DNA of 64,000 nt from Gemmatirosa kalamazoonensis. Its GTDB lineage: Bacteria > Gemmatimonadota > Gemmatimonadetes > Gemmatimonadales > Gemmatimonadaceae. The notes beneath the pieces were generated by a model. That model had not been told where the DNA came from, did not search any database, and saw nothing but the letters and a program-made list of their open reading frames with translations. Location: assembly GCF_000522985.1 (NCBI RefSeq), contig NZ_CP007128.1, forward strand, positions 186,001-250,000. Direction: 5' to 3'. The translations under genes were made by a program, and so were the position numbers. This document shows positions 13,197 to 61,310 of this stretch, in pieces; position 1 is the stretch's first letter, and each line of letters begins with the position of its first letter.

Positions 13197-13500
13197 GTGT
13201 CCTAACGGCGGGACGCCTAACGAGCGAGGGACGGCGGGACGATCCACTGCGGGACGAATTGCTGCGGGACGGCGAACGGCGGGACGTCTACGGCGGGATC
13301 GGGATACGGTCAGAGGATCCGATTGGCGTTCGATTGGTACGGCGGTGCTTCGAGCGCATAGCACCTTGGGCGAAGGGGGGGGAGCCCCCCTAGTAACTAG
13401 GTACCGCGCCGGTGGTTCTCCCGCGGTTGACCGTCCCGCCGTGGATCGTCCCGCCGTGGATCGTCCCGCCGTGGATCGTCCCGCAGTAAGTCGACCCCTC
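13197..13500. repeat. palindromic 15-bp repeat array A with G-rich core
   Basis: The left arm carries imperfect ACGGCGGGAC units (13205-13305), the right arm the inverted unit GTGGATCGTCCCGCC repeated in tandem (about 13431-13490). Between them is a core, GGGCGAAGGGGGGGGAGC (13368 on), whose G8 run faces a C6 run, followed by TAGTAACTA. Array B at 36827-37182 has the same plan and core. The left arm contains CCTAACGGCGGGA, which merges with the dispersed CGTTAGGC octamer. Together with flanks, the gap 13067-13665 holds no convincing gene. Confidence 0.75.
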
Positions 13501-21805: not shown

Positions 21806-22239
21806 GTGGACCCATTGGACCCGGGACTCGGGACTCGGGACTCGGGACTCGGGACTCGTGGGGGAGCAGTTCCCGAGTCCCGAGTCCCGAGTCCCGAGTC
21901 CCGACCCCCGATGAAGTCAAACTGAAGAAGACCGCGCAGCAGCTCGAGTCGCTGTTCGTCGAGCAGCTGTTCAAGGCCATGCGCGAGACCGTCCCGCAGG
22001 GCGAGGGCGCGATCGGCGCGGCCACCGGCGAGGACATGTTCACGGGGCTCATGGACCAGCACTTGGCGGCCGATACTCCCACGCAGTGGGCGCACGGCCT
22101 GGCCGATGCCGCGTACCGGCAGCTCCGCGCCGCGCTCCCTGGATCGAAGACCGAACAGACCACCGAGCACACTGCGCCGTCCACGAAGTTGACGCAGCTC
22201 CGCGCGCCGACGCCCGTGATCCCGCTCCCCTCGCGATAA
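21802..22239 (+). CDS. flgJ: FlgJ-type rod-binding protein
   Basis: Rod-cap/rod-binding protein of 145 aa with only the N-terminal FlgJ domain (KTAQQLESLFVEQLFKAMRE, residues 43-62) and no muramidase domain, as in many non-enteric bacteria. The ATG overlaps the flgI stop. Residues 7-36 are encoded by two facing 7-bp arrays and read as GTRDSGL- and SRVPSPE-type repeats. There is no in-frame start after the arrays, so the repeat peptide is probably translated. The C-terminal 30 residues are Thr/Pro-rich and unassigned. flgN follows with no gap. Confidence 0.8.
   Translation: MSGPIGPGTRDSGLGTRDSWGSSSRVPSPESRVPTPDEVKLKKTAQQLESLFVEQLFKAMRETVPQGEGAIGAATGEDMFTGLMDQHLAADTPTQWAHGLADAAYRQLRAALPGSKTEQTTEHTAPSTKLTQLRAPTPVIPLPSR
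21822..21905. repeat. facing GGGACTC / GAGTCCC heptamer arrays inside flgJ
   Basis: Five CGGGACT units (21822-21856), a spacer of about 13 bases, then about five inverted GAGTCCC units to 21903. This makes a long hairpin inside the 5' part of flgJ. Seven bases is not a multiple of three, so three units (21 bp) encode one 7-residue period. Confidence 0.85.
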
Positions 22240-36817: not shown

Positions 36818-36826
36818 TACGGCGGG

Positions 36827-37182
36827 ACGAGTGACGGACACCTGACTGCGGGACGACTGACGGCGGGACGACGAACGGCGGGACGACGAACGGCGGGACG
36901 ACGAACGGCGGGATGCCTAACGGCGGGATCGGGATGCGGTGGCCGGGATCCGGCCCGCGTCGGATCGGTACCGCGCTGCGACCGCCGGCGCGGAACTATG
37001 GGCGAAGGGGGGGGAGCCCCCCCTGGTAACTACGATCCCGCGCGCGCGCGATCCCGCCGTGGGCCGTCCCGCCGTGGATCGTCCCGCCGTAGATCGTCCC
37101 GCCGTAGATCGTCCCGCCGTAGATCGTCCCGCCGTAGATCGTCCCGCCGTTCGTCGTCCCGCCGTCGGGCGTCCCGCAGTTA
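36827..37182. repeat. palindromic 15-bp repeat array B with G-rich core
   Basis: The left arm has about seven GACGAACGGCGGGAC-type units (36829-36930), the right arm about seven inverted GTAGATCGTCCCGCC units (37066-37175). The core GGGCGAAGGGGGGGGAGC (37000 on), followed by a C7 run and GGTAACTA, repeats that of array A almost base for base. Two CGTTAGGC-like sites close the right end, one supplying the TAA stop of the next gene. This fills the 373-base gap between a kelch gene and the convergent EAL-HDOD gene; no gene is supported in it. Confidence 0.8.
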
Positions 37183-37190
37183 GGCGCCAG

Positions 37191-38498
37191 TTAGGCCGCC
37201 CCGATCCGCTCGCCCGCCCACGCCAGCGCTTCCGTGTAGGCCTTCGACACGTCGCCCGCGCCGATCCCCACGGCGGCCGCCGCGTCCTGCACCGCCTGCC
37301 AGTCGCCGCGCTCCTGCGCTTCCACCAGCGCGAGCGTCGGCGCGTACGGCCCGGAGCGCGACAGCAGCACCGCGCGCACCTCCGGCGCGATCGCCATGCG
37401 CGACAGGATCCCCTCCATCGGCATGCGCAGCAGCACGTCGAGCAGCGAGAACAGCCCGACGAGGAACATCGGCCCCATCGCCTGCGCGCGCTCGGTGCGC
37501 TGCGCGATCAGCTCGCACAGCCGCGCGCGCACGAGCGCCGCGAGCACCAGCTCCCCGGCGATCCCGCTCGACGACGCCACCGACGAGATGAGCAGCAGCG
37601 ACAGCCAGCGGTGCAGGACCTTCCGGCCCACCATGCGAAGCGCGAAGCCGATCGACTGCACGTCGCGGCCGCCGAACGCCGCGGAGTTCGCGATGCGCAG
37701 CAGCTTGTACGACAGCGACGGGTCGGAGCGGAAGCCGTCCTCGATCTCGGTGTCCGTCGCCGTCGGGTTGTCGAGCATCGACAGCAGCCGCAGCATCGTC
37801 GTGTGCTCCACCGACAGCTCGCGGTGCGACACGATCTGCGGGCGGCTGTAGTAGTAGCCCTGGAACAGCGTGAAGCCGAGCCGCCGGCACATGTCGCGCA
37901 CCTCGGCCGACTCCACGCGCTCGGCCAGCAGCCGCACGCCGTGCGGCAGTAGCTCGCGCGCGACCTGCTTCAGCTCCTCCTCCGGGCGATTCAGCACGTC
38001 GATCTTCACGATCTTCGCCATGCGGAGCAGCGGCTCGTAGCCCGGCGCGTTCACGAAGTCGTCGAGCGCGAGCGGATAGCCCGAGCGCACGATCCGGCGG
38101 CACGCCTCCACCACCTCGTCGTCCGGCTCCACCGTCTCGAGCAGCTCGACCACGATCGTCGTCGGGTCGAACAGCTCGTACAGGTTCCGCATCAGGAAGT
38201 CGCGGGTCATGTTCACGAACGCGAGCGTGCCGTTCGTGAGCGGGTTCAGCCCGATGCTGAGGACCGCGTGCAGCACCGTGTCGGTGCACATCTGGTCCGC
38301 GCTGACGCCGTTCGCGAAGTTCTGCTGCGTGCCGCTCCGGTAGAGCAGCTCGTACGCGAACAGGCGATCGTGCTCGTCGAAGATCGGCTGCCGCGCGACG
38401 AACACGTCGCGGATCGCCGTGGCGTCCACGGCCTCGGCGGCCGGCGACGGAGATGGGGCGGCCGACTCGCGGCGACGGAGGAGGGGCATGATGCCCAT
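37191..38498 (-). CDS. EAL-HDOD domain signalling protein
   Basis: 435 aa from the ATG at 38498 (MGIMPLLRRRES); the longer frame adds low-complexity residues. Residues about 28-215 are an EAL-like domain that has lost key motifs (AYELLYR for EAL, LALDDFVNAPGYEPLL for the DDFG loop), so catalysis of cyclic di-GMP breakdown is unlikely. Residues 220-420 are an HDOD domain (LSYKLLRIANSAAFGG). Proteins of this plan (YuxH/CdgJ type) affect motility and c-di-GMP signalling. The stop codon lies in a CCTAAC sequence at the end of repeat array B. Confidence 0.85.
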   Translation of the reverse strand: MGIMPLLRRRESAAPSPSPAAEAVDATAIRDVFVARQPIFDEHDRLFAYELLYRSGTQQNFANGVSADQMCTDTVLHAVLSIGLNPLTNGTLAFVNMTRDFLMRNLYELFDPTTIVVELLETVEPDDEVVEACRRIVRSGYPLALDDFVNAPGYEPLLRMAKIVKIDVLNRPEEELKQVARELLPHGVRLLAERVESAEVRDMCRRLGFTLFQGYYYSRPQIVSHRELSVEHTTMLRLLSMLDNPTATDTEIEDGFRSDPSLSYKLLRIANSAAFGGRDVQSIGFALRMVGRKVLHRWLSLLLISSVASSSGIAGELVLAALVRARLCELIAQRTERAQAMGPMFLVGLFSLLDVLLRMPMEGILSRMAIAPEVRAVLLSRSGPYAPTLALVEAQERGDWQAVQDAAAAVGIGAGDVSKAYTEALAWAGERIGAA

Positions 38499-39623: not shown

Positions 39624-39743
39624 AACGGCGGCGCTGCTACGGCGGCGCTGAAACCTCGGCGCTGGAAAGGCGGCGCTGATACCGCGCGTGTCCAGCGCCG
39701 CCGTATCAGCGCCGCCTTTTCAGCGCCGAGGTTTCAGCGCCGC
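39624..39743. repeat. 42-bp-arm inverted repeat upstream of ABC operon
   Basis: GGCGGCGCTG-based units on the left (39627-39682) return inverted on the right (39703-39743). The arms match at 41 of 42 positions by eye, around a 20-base loop. It lies between the lipoprotein stop and the ABC ATPase start (18 bases away). It may end the upstream transcript or shape the leader of the ABC mRNA. Confidence 0.75.
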
Positions 39744-39760
39744 CTCACCATATTTGGTGG

Positions 39761-48883: not shown

Positions 48884-51448
48884 TCAGCGGCGGCCGAGGG
48901 CCGCCACCGCCGCGCGCCGAACTTCCGGATCGGGGTCCTTCAGGAGCGCGACGAGCGCCTCCACGGCGTTCGCCCCGCCGATGTGCGCGAGCGCCTGCAC
49001 CGCGACGCGCCGCATCTCCGGATCGGTGGAGCGCGCGAGCGTCGCGAGCCCCGTGCTGGCCGCGGGATCCTCGATCTGGCCGAGCGCCCACGCGGACGTC
49101 TTGCGGACGTCGCGGTCGTCGTCGGAGAGCGCGGCGACGAGCGCATTCACCGCCGTCGGCGACTCGATCTGCCCGAGCGCCCACGCCGCCTTGCGCCGCA
49201 CGGTCGCCGACTGGTCCTTCAGCGCCGCGCTGAGCGCGGGCACCGAGCGCGCGTCCTCGATCTGACCGAGCGCCCACGCGGCCATGTCGCGCACGCTCGG
49301 CTCCCCGTCCTTCAGCGCGGCGGCGAGCGGCTCGATCGCGTCCTTGCTCTCGATCTGCCCGAGCGCCCACGCGCTCTGCTTGCGCACCTCGGCGTCGGAG
49401 TTCGTGAGGCCCGGCGTGAGCAGCGGCACGGCGCGCGGGTCCTCGATCTGCCCGAGCGCCCACACCGCGGTGCGGCGGACGTCGACGCTCTGGTCGCGGA
49501 GCGCGGCGCCTAACGCGTCGACGGCGCCCTTGTCCTCGATCTGGCCGAGGGCCCACGCCGCCTGCTTGCGCACCGACGGCGACTGGTCGCCGCGCAGCGC
49601 CTCGACGAGCGCCGGCACCGCCTTCGCGTCCTCGAGCTGGCCGAGCGCCCACGCCGCGCTCTCGCGGACGTTCGCGTCGGTGTCGCGGCGGAGCGCCTGC
49701 ATGAGCGCCTCGACCGCGCGCGGATCCTCCAGCTCGCCGAGCGCGTGCACCGCGGCGCGGCGCACCTGCACGTCGCTGTCGCCGAGCGCGCCGATGAGCG
49801 GCACCACGGCGGCGCTCGATCCGGCGCGCGGCTGATTGCCGATGTACATGCGCGGCGGCCGCGGCGTCCGCACCCTCACCTCGTTGCGCAGCCGGAAGCG
49901 GCCGTTGCCGTCGTAGATGAACGGCGTCGGGGTCGGCGCGGGCATCGGCTGCGGCGCGACGTGCACGACCGGCGGCTGCGCCGACTGCACCGACTGCGAC
50001 AGACCGTTCAGGAAGCTCATCGCCGCGCGCGTCAGCGTGTTCGTGACATTGCTCGTGACGCTGCTCGTCTCGTTCGTGACGACGTTCGTGTTCGTGGCCG
50101 TGCTCGTGTTGACCGCCACGCTCGACTGCGGCTCGTCGCGCGTCTGGATCGACGCGCTCGTCGATGCGCCGCCCGTACTGGCCGACGCACTCGCCGATGC
50201 ACTCGCCGACGCGCTGCCCGACGCGCTGGCCGGCGCGCGCGGCGACGTCGAGGTGGACTCGTGCGTCGGCGCCGCGGGCGCATTCTCCTGCGCCGGGCGC
50301 GCGGTCGTCGGATCGGCGGGACGCATCGCGGCGAGCGGCGCGACCACGCCGAACGTGGCGGCGATCGTCGCGAGCTTCGCGAGCCGTCCCACGGTGCGGC
50401 GCTGCGTGCGCGCATCGAGGATGGCGAGCACGCGTCCCTCGAACTCGCTCGGGCGCGCCATGCCGAACGCGGCGAGCGCCGGCACGCGCGTCGGCCGTGC
50501 CGAACGCACGATCGCGAGCAGGTCGCTCACGTACGCCGACGGCTCGGTGCCGTGCTGCAGCACGCAATCGTCGCACGCGTGCTCCGCCTCGCTGCGCAGC
50601 GCGCGCACGCCGATCCACACGAGCGGATCGAACCAGCAGAGCGCGAGCACCACGTGCGCGGCGAGCTGCGAGAGCATGTCGAGCCGCCGCACGTGCGCCA
50701 GCTCGTGCAGCAGCACCGTGCGCCGACGCTCGAGCGTCCAGTCCTCCGCCTCCACCGGCAGCAGCACGACCGGCACGAGCACGCCCCACGTCACCGGCAC
50801 CGCGAGCCCGCGGCCGCGCAGCAGCACCACGGGACGGCGCAGCCCCATGTCGTTCGACAGCTGCGTCGCGAGCGTGAGCCACTCGCCGTCGGTCACGCGC
50901 TCGGCGCGCCGCGCGATGAGCGTCACGCCTAACGACCCGGCGACCAGCCAGAGCAGCACGAGGCCGGCGCCGACGCTCCAGACGCCTAACAGCAGAACTG
51001 CGGGACGACTGACGGCGGGACGATCGACGACGGGATGACTGACGGCGGGACGATCGGCGGCGGGAAGCTCCCCGACGTATTCGTCCCGCGGTGGACGTCC
51101 CGCAGTGTTTCGTCCCGCAGGAGTCCGTCCCGCCGTCAGGTCCGCCGGCAAGTCTGCGGGATCACCGACGAGCGGCACCGTGAGCTGCGTCGCACCGGCA
51201 TCCCGATGCAGGCCGACCGTGAGCGTCCACGCCGGCAGCGCGGGGCGCCAGGCGGGAAGCACGGCGCCCAACAGCGGCGTCGCGAGCTGGGCGAGCAGCG
51301 CGGCGAGCCACACCGAGTGCCGCACGGCGGCGGGCTGCCGGCGCAGGAGGCGCGTCGCGAGGAACGCGACGGCGAGGATGACGGCGCCCTTGAACGCGAT
51401 CGACGTCGCGAGGTCGCCCCACAGCTTCGTCCCGAGGAGTGCCGTCAT
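48884..51448 (-). CDS. BlaR1-type M56 peptidase fused to HEAT repeats
   Basis: 854 aa membrane sensor-protease. Helices at about 15-35, 45-65, 152-178 and 315-335 surround a zinc-protease domain with HELAH at 248-252 and the conserved SEAEHACDDCVLQHG. A Ser/Ala/Thr-rich linker (about 370-480) leads to HEAT repeats (about 560-854, motif ALxDxxxxVRxxAAWALGQI). It replaces the penicillin-binding sensor of BlaR1 with HEAT repeats, so the input is probably a protein. Residues 104-150 are written by 15-bp repeat array C. With blaI it forms a regulatory pair (gap 1 base). The cleavage target is likely BlaI. Confidence 0.88.
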   Translation of the reverse strand: MTALLGTKLWGDLATSIAFKGAVILAVAFLATRLLRRQPAAVRHSVWLAALLAQLATPLLGAVLPAWRPALPAWTLTVGLHRDAGATQLTVPLVGDPADLPADLTAGRTPAGRNTAGRPPRDEYVGELPAADRPAVSHPVVDRPAVSRPAVLLLGVWSVGAGLVLLWLVAGSLGVTLIARRAERVTDGEWLTLATQLSNDMGLRRPVVLLRGRGLAVPVTWGVLVPVVLLPVEAEDWTLERRRTVLLHELAHVRRLDMLSQLAAHVVLALCWFDPLVWIGVRALRSEAEHACDDCVLQHGTEPSAYVSDLLAIVRSARPTRVPALAAFGMARPSEFEGRVLAILDARTQRRTVGRLAKLATIAATFGVVAPLAAMRPADPTTARPAQENAPAAPTHESTSTSPRAPASASGSASASASASASASTGGASTSASIQTRDEPQSSVAVNTSTATNTNVVTNETSSVTSNVTNTLTRAAMSFLNGLSQSVQSAQPPVVHVAPQPMPAPTPTPFIYDGNGRFRLRNEVRVRTPRPPRMYIGNQPRAGSSAAVVPLIGALGDSDVQVRRAAVHALGELEDPRAVEALMQALRRDTDANVRESAAWALGQLEDAKAVPALVEALRGDQSPSVRKQAAWALGQIEDKGAVDALGAALRDQSVDVRRTAVWALGQIEDPRAVPLLTPGLTNSDAEVRKQSAWALGQIESKDAIEPLAAALKDGEPSVRDMAAWALGQIEDARSVPALSAALKDQSATVRRKAAWALGQIESPTAVNALVAALSDDDRDVRKTSAWALGQIEDPAASTGLATLARSTDPEMRRVAVQALAHIGGANAVEALVALLKDPDPEVRRAAVAALGRR
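50995..51142. repeat. 15-bp repeat array C inside the BlaR1 gene
   Basis: The left arm, CGGGACGACTGACGG-type 15-mers (four units), faces an inverted right arm of CGTCCCGC units. It is the same family as arrays A and B but lacks the G8 core, and it sits inside an open frame. Because 15 is a multiple of three it reads as 5-residue units (DRPAV, TAGRP) between two membrane helices. Confidence 0.75.
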
Positions 51449-51449
51449 C

Positions 51450-51842
51450 TCAGCGTCCCTCCTTCTTCGCCTGCTCGGCGAGTTTGGCGATCCGGTCGAG
51501 CTCCTCGTCGGAGAGCTGCGGGCCCTGCAGCTCGAGCAGCGCCGTCACGGCGGACCCGATCGAGCCGTGGAAGAACGTGCGCACCATCTGCTCGAGCGCC
51601 GAGTTGCGCGCGTCGTCGGCCGCTACGACCGGCGTGTAGACGTAGCGCGGGCCCTCCTGCGCGTGCTGCACGTATCCCTTCTCCTCCAGGATCTCGAGCA
51701 GCTTGCGGGCGGTGGAGTAGCTCGGCGCGTCGGGCAGCTCGGCGAGCACTTCGGCCGCCGTGGCCTGGCCGCGGCGGAAGAGGATCTCCATGATCTGCGA
51801 CTCCCGGCGGGTGAGCGCGGAGAGCGGCGGCGGGTTCGGCAT
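51450..51842 (-). CDS. blaI: BlaI/MecI-family repressor
   Basis: Winged-helix repressor of 130 aa from the ATG at 51842 (MPNPPPLSALTRRESQ); an ATG at 51914 is rejected because two operators overlap that segment. Helix-turn-helix LTRRESQIMEILFRRGQATA is followed by SYSTARKLLEILEEKGYVQH and a C-terminal dimerisation helix. In the known pathway the M56 protease inactivates BlaI to lift repression. The stop is 1 base from the BlaR1 gene. Promoter and operators lie at 51878-51930. Confidence 0.92.
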   Translation of the reverse strand: MPNPPPLSALTRRESQIMEILFRRGQATAAEVLAELPDAPSYSTARKLLEILEEKGYVQHAQEGPRYVYTPVVAADDARNSALEQMVRTFFHGSIGSAVTALLELQGPQLSDEELDRIAKLAEQAKKEGR

Positions 51843-59618: not shown

Positions 59619-59791
59619 GAACCCCAGAGGGCCGCAGAGGACTGCCTCTTCGTATTGAACCACGGAGGACACGGAGGACACAGAGGAAACCCACGCTTTT
59701 GAAAGGGTTCTCCTCCGTGTCCTCCGTGTCCTCTGTGGTAAGAAAAAGCAGTTGCCGTTCTCCGCGGCCCGCTGCGGCCCTCTGCGGTTCA
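59619..59791. repeat. nested inverted-repeat element with CGGAGGACA units
   Basis: Outer ends GAACCCCAGAGGGCCGCAGAGG and its inverted copy GGCCCTCTGCGGTTC enclose an inner hairpin: GAACCACGGAGGACACGGAG (59658 on) faces CTCCGTGTCCTCCGTGTCCT (59712 on). It shares the CAGAGG/CCTCTGCGGTTC ends with 10888-11090. Units of this kind (ACCACGGAGGACACGGAGG) are widespread in bacteria. No gene is supported in 59508-59817. Confidence 0.7.
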
Positions 59792-61232: not shown

Positions 61233-61310
61233 GAGCGTGGAGCGTGGAGCGTGGAGCGGAGAGGGCTTCCTCTCGCACAATGCGTGCTCCACGCTCCACG
61301 CTCCACGCTC
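61233..61310. repeat. facing GAGCGTG / CACGCTC heptamer arrays
   Basis: Four GAGCGTG-type units (61233-61260) face four inverted units (GCTCCAC register, about 61285-61310) around a 24-base loop, between the acetyltransferase start and the gamma-glutamyltransferase stop. The same heptamer is used inside the flgA signal peptide at 19223-19257. Confidence 0.8.

Follow-up and report, generated by a model that had tools for sequence, protein, structure and literature searches.

How does a tandem repeat come to lie in frame within a gene for a BlaR1-like receptor, and what, if anything, does it do there? The question arises in the 64,000-nucleotide stretch of DNA analysed here (the window), which corresponds to C2:186001-250000 in the 7.48-Mb, four-replicon genome of Gemmatirosa kalamazoonensis KBS708, a single strain whose genome alone represents the genus in our sample. 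An earlier, sequence-only reading of this DNA had noticed a 15-bp repeat, array C, inside the blaR1 coding frame, and had taken it for a repeat invading or lengthening a sensor loop. The locus comprises the following features:

48884-51448, minus strand: open reading frame of a BlaR1-like receptor, 854 aa (PF05569, 4.4e-30; HEAT_2, 2.1e-75)
51450-51842, minus strand: BlaI/MecI-type repressor gene directly upstream of blaR1 (PF03965, 5.8e-27)
50995-51148, minus strand: array C, a two-armed inverted tandem array in frame at residues ~102-152 (repeat and frame analysis, BLAST)

That the repeat lies within a coding frame was borne out. The minus-strand frame 48884-51448 stays open across array C, and GC content by codon position is coding-like on both flanks (0.67/0.64/0.90 upstream and 0.74/0.55/0.95 downstream). 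Sequencing through long tandem repeats of high GC content is difficult, and an assembly or frame artefact could in principle hide a real gene that is broken at the array. However, the KBS708 genome is complete and was sequenced with PacBio technology at a coverage of ~118x (PMC3974934), and both coding signal and homology run in one frame on either side of array C. We regard such an artefact as extremely improbable.

The predicted protein has the hallmarks of the BlaR1/MecR1 (M56) group, namely an M56 peptidase with an HExxH motif, transmembrane helices on either side of it and a blaI neighbor. Its similarity to the nearest solved BlaR1 is weak (E 0.005). Its parts are ordered as TM1, TM2, the EL1 loop, TM3, the M56 zinc peptidase (HELAH), TM4 and C-terminal HEAT repeats. 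Array C encodes residues ~102-152, in the extracytoplasmic TM2-TM3 loop (EL1), and is bracketed by the predicted helices 40-63 (TM2) and 148-181 (TM3), which agrees with the earlier placement of the segment between membrane helices. In the AlphaFold model, pLDDT is ~47-59 over residues 71-140, compared with more than 90 in the helices.

Whether EL1 is a sensor loop here, as had been proposed, is a different matter. In Staphylococcus aureus BlaR1, EL1 is a signaling loop whose end plugs the penicillin-binding sensor (PMC9834060). The loop in Gemmatirosa shares its position between helices 2 and 3, its extracytoplasmic side and its poor resolution, and to that extent the proposal stands. By contrast, a domain search found no penicillin-binding sensor domain at the C terminus, which is occupied by HEAT repeats instead, and the end of the loop is derived from the repeat. 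With HEAT repeats as the predicted sensor, the β-lactam plug role of EL1 is therefore not transferable to this protein.

Array C is not the single uniform 15-bp array that it had been taken for. It consists of two inverted arms around a short core:

51000-51065, plus strand: G-rich arm, units (T/G)GCGGGACG(ACTG/ATCG)AC, peptide DRPAVSHPVVDRPAVSRPAV (sequence)
51060-51077, no strand: short hairpin core GCGGGAAGCTCCCCGACG (genome pattern search)
51085-51148, plus strand: C-rich arm, CGTCCCGC units at spacings of 14, 15 and 15 bp, peptide LTAGRTPAGRNTAGRPPRDEY (sequence)

The 14-bp step in the C-rich arm (CGTCCCGCGGTGGA) shifts the register within the array. Accordingly, the 5-residue units DRPAV and TAGRP described earlier were recovered in part: the G-rich arm encodes DRPAV, whereas the C-rich arm encodes partly TAGR/PAGR and then PRDE. 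The associated argument, that a period divisible by three lets the repeat grow without breaking the frame, did not survive. Array C has its 14-bp unit, the same family forms arrays with a 14-bp period elsewhere (C2:875580), and the homologous loop of a genome from another genus (G041) carries a 7-bp array. Moreover, because the 15-bp period is found in intergenic copies as well, it is a property of the family and not a protection of the frame.

The claim that the repeat belongs to a shared 15-bp family held up well. Exact matches to the two-unit pattern GGCGGGACGNNNNACGGCGGGACG number 118+103 genome-wide, compared with 0 for the reversed control. BLAST aligned array C end to end with two intergenic copies that also have a short core, C2:875607 (81%) and C2:629479 (79%), with E values of 1.6e-30 and 3.4e-24. 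Like other members of the 15-bp GGCGGGACG family, array C has 15-bp GCGGGACG units and inverted arms around a core. Pattern and BLAST searches together yielded 50 array places of this family, a few of them doubtful (e.g., C2:181092 and C2:360147), and the samples hold 116/118 and 98/103 of the exact two-unit matches. The long core GGGCGAAGGGGGGGGAGCCCCCC is present in 40 of the 50 places, and 35 are two-armed, always with the G-rich arm on the left and the C-rich arm on the right. Two members with the long core lie in the window:

13200-13490, no strand: intergenic member of the 15-bp family with the long core GGGCGAAGGGGGGGGAGCCCCCC (core and pattern search)
36820-37195, no strand: intergenic long-core member, flanked by convergent gene 3' ends (core and pattern search)

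A core search across family members found no long GGGCGAAGG core in array C. Its short core GCGGGAAGCTCCCCGACG has one other mismatch-free match in the genome, inside the coreless intergenic element C2:875580. As a separate observation, the 23-bp core GGGCGAAGGGGGGGGAGCCCCCC is strongly conserved, with 63 places at no more than three mismatches, 48 of which are identical, and it occurs in both orientations between arms that themselves keep a single one. A chromosome-wide orientation bias of the family was considered and rejected, both strands being about equally represented in the sample.

These results bear on whether array C could have been born locally in blaR1, as an ordinary minisatellite grown by slippage or unequal crossing-over that resembles the dispersed family only superficially. 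Some repeats in homologous loops do look local and have periods divisible by three: one of 12 bp in the paralogue C2:1658872, its only place in the sample, and one of 21 bp in the genome G045. A local minisatellite would occupy one locus in a single orientation with such a period, and array C does not fit this description. Its two inverted arms and short core are all present, intergenic elements match it from one end to the other, and one of its steps measures 14 bp; a reverse-complement arm is not a product of slippage. Local birth is thus very unlikely, and arrival as a member of the dispersed family is the reading that we carry forward.

Convincing placement in a gene, with coding signal on either flank, was seen at just two places of the 15-bp family. 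One is array C. The other is C2:1640803, where the array forms a linker straight after a single TM helix and is read in another frame, giving the peptide IVPPS. An 803-aa second frame at C2:875606 that encodes the same peptide as array C was rejected as a shadow frame lacking coding signal.

We next compared the TM2-TM3 loop among 76 M56 homologues from the same bacterial family. Its median length is 75 aa (IQR 69-86), and the loops of the nearest homologues measure 69-102 aa, are unrelated in sequence and lack the array C repeat. Relative to these, the 89-aa loop of the Gemmatirosa protein is therefore not lengthened. The earlier proposal was right in one half, in that a dispersed repeat lies in frame where homologues have none, and wrong in the other. 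Without array C the loop would measure ~40 aa, near the lower limit, since 2 of the 76 homologous loops are that short; array C may thus have replaced native loop sequence or been inserted into it. Mean identity to the homologues falls from 0.45 in the protease and 0.36 in TM1-TM2 to 0.17 in the loop, and no conserved motif was found in the loop across the 76 proteins. An unrelated, conserved loop of equal length in homologues had been named as evidence against an invading repeat; the homologous loops are indeed unrelated and of similar length, but they are not conserved. Judged by sequence, EL1 in this bacterial family varies rather little in length, is free in sequence and accepts almost any. 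A further search of genome contigs for related loci returned distant Firmicutes M56 proteins only.

Repeats recur in this loop. A TRF score of at least 50 was obtained for 13/76 loops but only 2/76 of the longer protease parts (p 0.005, a guide only, since the sequences are related), and a score of at least 80 for six loops and no protease part. The loop repeat of G041 belongs to that genome's own dispersed 7-bp GTCCACG family (81 matches compared with 0 for the control), which has two-armed copies elsewhere in G041. For the 15-bp loop repeat of G042, CGCCGTATCGGATCT, other contigs of that draft genome yielded only a few weak copies, which is no more than suggestive. The recurrence across several genera, together with the signaling role of EL1 in S. 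aureus BlaR1 (PMC9834060), speaks for an adaptive reading of array C, in which a lengthened or re-tuned sensor loop was selected for signaling. Against this, the loop is of ordinary length and unconstrained sequence, similar arrays occupy unrelated linkers, and the sensor is predicted to be made of HEAT repeats rather than a penicillin-binding domain. We consider selection for signaling quite improbable. The fairly constrained length of EL1, its unconserved sequence and its predicted disorder argue instead that the repeat is tolerated as a linker.

Array C represents a wider class. Within C2:1-400000, we detected 33 two-armed inverted arrays of tandem units, with periods of 7-15 bp in nearly every case, and found no direct pairs. 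A sample of 1.38 Mb, selected around the 15-bp family, contained 178 two-armed arrays and nine direct pairs. Most arrays in the 400 kb lie a few tens of bases or less from stop codons. Convergent gene ends are favored (9/31 vs. 18/172) and divergent promoters avoided (1/31 vs. 42/172) in the same 400 kb, the gene finder behind these 3'-end statistics having been improvised. Four further two-armed arrays in the window, made of unrelated units, mostly adjoin gene 3' ends: 21817-21911 (7 bp), 39624-39744 (14 bp), 59661-59737 (9 bp) and 61233-61310 (7 bp).

This crowding of sister arrays at stop codons and their avoidance of divergent promoters raise the possibility that array C acts in the mRNA, as a stable hairpin that attenuates or pauses blaR1 expression. 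Its predicted RNA fold has an energy of -79 kcal/mol (z -3.7), and with so strong a hairpin an effect on expression is possible. On the other hand, the hairpin would be unfolded by translating ribosomes, and it is not followed by a T-run. A role in the mRNA, although compatible with a dispersed element serving as a linker, is in our estimation unlikely.

Entry into genes is not confined to the 15-bp family, as ~10-12 two-armed arrays, mostly of 7-bp families, lie in frame within genes. Three of them are:

C2:1840632-1840712: 7-bp two-armed array in an NRPS adenylation domain, adding ~28 residues in frame as a clean insertion when compared with solved homologues
C2:904550-904620: 9-bp two-armed array in a gamma-glutamyltranspeptidase gene, in frame, upstream of the catalytic Thr region
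C2:1386751-1386819: 7-bp two-armed array in a second gamma-glutamyltranspeptidase gene, in frame, upstream of the catalytic Thr region

In the first case, query residues 208-236 have no counterpart in the solved homologue 6mfy, whose chain passes from 559 to 561. In the last, the array stops a few residues before the catalytic Thr that opens the small subunit. Arrays are also embedded between the two domains of a homocysteine methyltransferase/MTHFR fusion, in two histidine kinases, one of them a hybrid with the array between HATPase and receiver, and in further genes besides those named. Five places with doubtful frames (C2:174473, 272441, 482562, 1666893 and 4610739) were excluded from the count. 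Since units with a length not divisible by three yield the same peptide cycle in every frame, and inverted arms make the cycle independent of orientation, these properties may ease the tolerance of array peptides in proteins. Of note on its own account, the 8-bp family (AGGGCAGG/CCTGCCCT and others) has 46 two-armed arrays, none convincingly embedded in a gene, compared with 8/38 for 7-bp units (p 0.001), even though stops are also absent from the most frequent 8-bp unit.

Taken together, these findings make it highly likely that array C is a copy, complete though somewhat decayed, of a dispersed two-armed 15-bp element, that it sits in frame in blaR1 as a passive EL1 linker, and that it exemplifies a process which has recurred in this genome. 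In this scheme, palindromic arrays of several unrelated units, which usually lie just past stop codons and would act there as 3'-end hairpins, also land in loops and linkers. Array C would have arrived in blaR1 as a whole element by insertion and would now fill EL1, tolerated as near-neutral linker protein and not as a new sensing module. Non-coding repeats here recurrently become protein loops and linkers. It is far more tentative, and on balance doubtful, that Gemmatimonadota at large harbor a class of palindromic tandem-array elements, still active and dispersed by no known transposase, that enter genes by way of frame- and orientation-neutral units (7 bp above all) and have diversified EL1-type signaling loops independently in several genera.

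Among known systems, REP/BIME elements with RAYT (Y1) are likewise short palindromic intergenic repeats near gene ends. A REP/RAYT origin was rejected, however, as no match to the Y1 transposase (Y1_Tnp, PF01797) was found in the Gemmatirosa genome by a search whose controls worked. The closest known kind are the Rickettsia palindromic elements (RPEs), reportedly described by Ogata in 2000 and 2002. RPEs and other protein-coding MITEs share with the Gemmatirosa arrays a dispersal of palindromes between genes and in frame in unrelated genes, where they add extra peptides at tolerated sites. They differ in that the arms of the Gemmatirosa arrays are themselves built of tandem units of 7, 9 or 15 bp that flank a short loop, and in that several unrelated families coexist in one free-living, high-GC Gemmatimonadota genome. 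A MITE would have terminal inverted repeats with a target-site duplication and a parent transposase; some of the array families have inverted flanks besides inverted arms. The likeness to RPEs is drawn from behavior: by analogy, the arrays appear to work like RPEs, which is a weaker claim than being RPEs. In-frame palindromic repeats of the RPE kind are known from Rickettsia (reviewed in PMC10969869), an intracellular organism with a genome under reduction, whereas the present host is a soil bacterium with a 7.5-Mb genome and several independent families.

Short repeats of G. kalamazoonensis have been reported in two classes of 90 and 150 bp, 471 in total (PMC11237797), so that the repeat density was already on record, and these are very probably in part the same elements. 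In the passages of that report considered here, the counts serve chromosome evolution, and tandem inverted arms, 3'-end placement and in-frame copies do not appear. In the literature searched, whose coverage is partial, neither two-armed tandem arrays of this type nor in-frame copies of them were described.

Our findings link one odd loop to a genome-wide process in which arrays behind genes become loops and linkers of conserved proteins. Many cases in Gemmatirosa can be put to the test, among them enzymes that have solved homologues and carry clean insertions, and the free sequence and steady length of EL1 bear on the reach of the S. aureus EL1-plug model.

Among the 59 genomes searched, the four-unit pattern was confined to the genome of the window and to G042 (genus g16). 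The 15-bp arrays of G042 are its own, with the unit GCGGGAGTCG, and are perhaps a diverged counterpart of the Gemmatirosa family. Finally, one gene ends in a C-terminal tail made of a 15-bp array with a single arm (C2:4973788-4973874), as would result from loss of its original stop codon.
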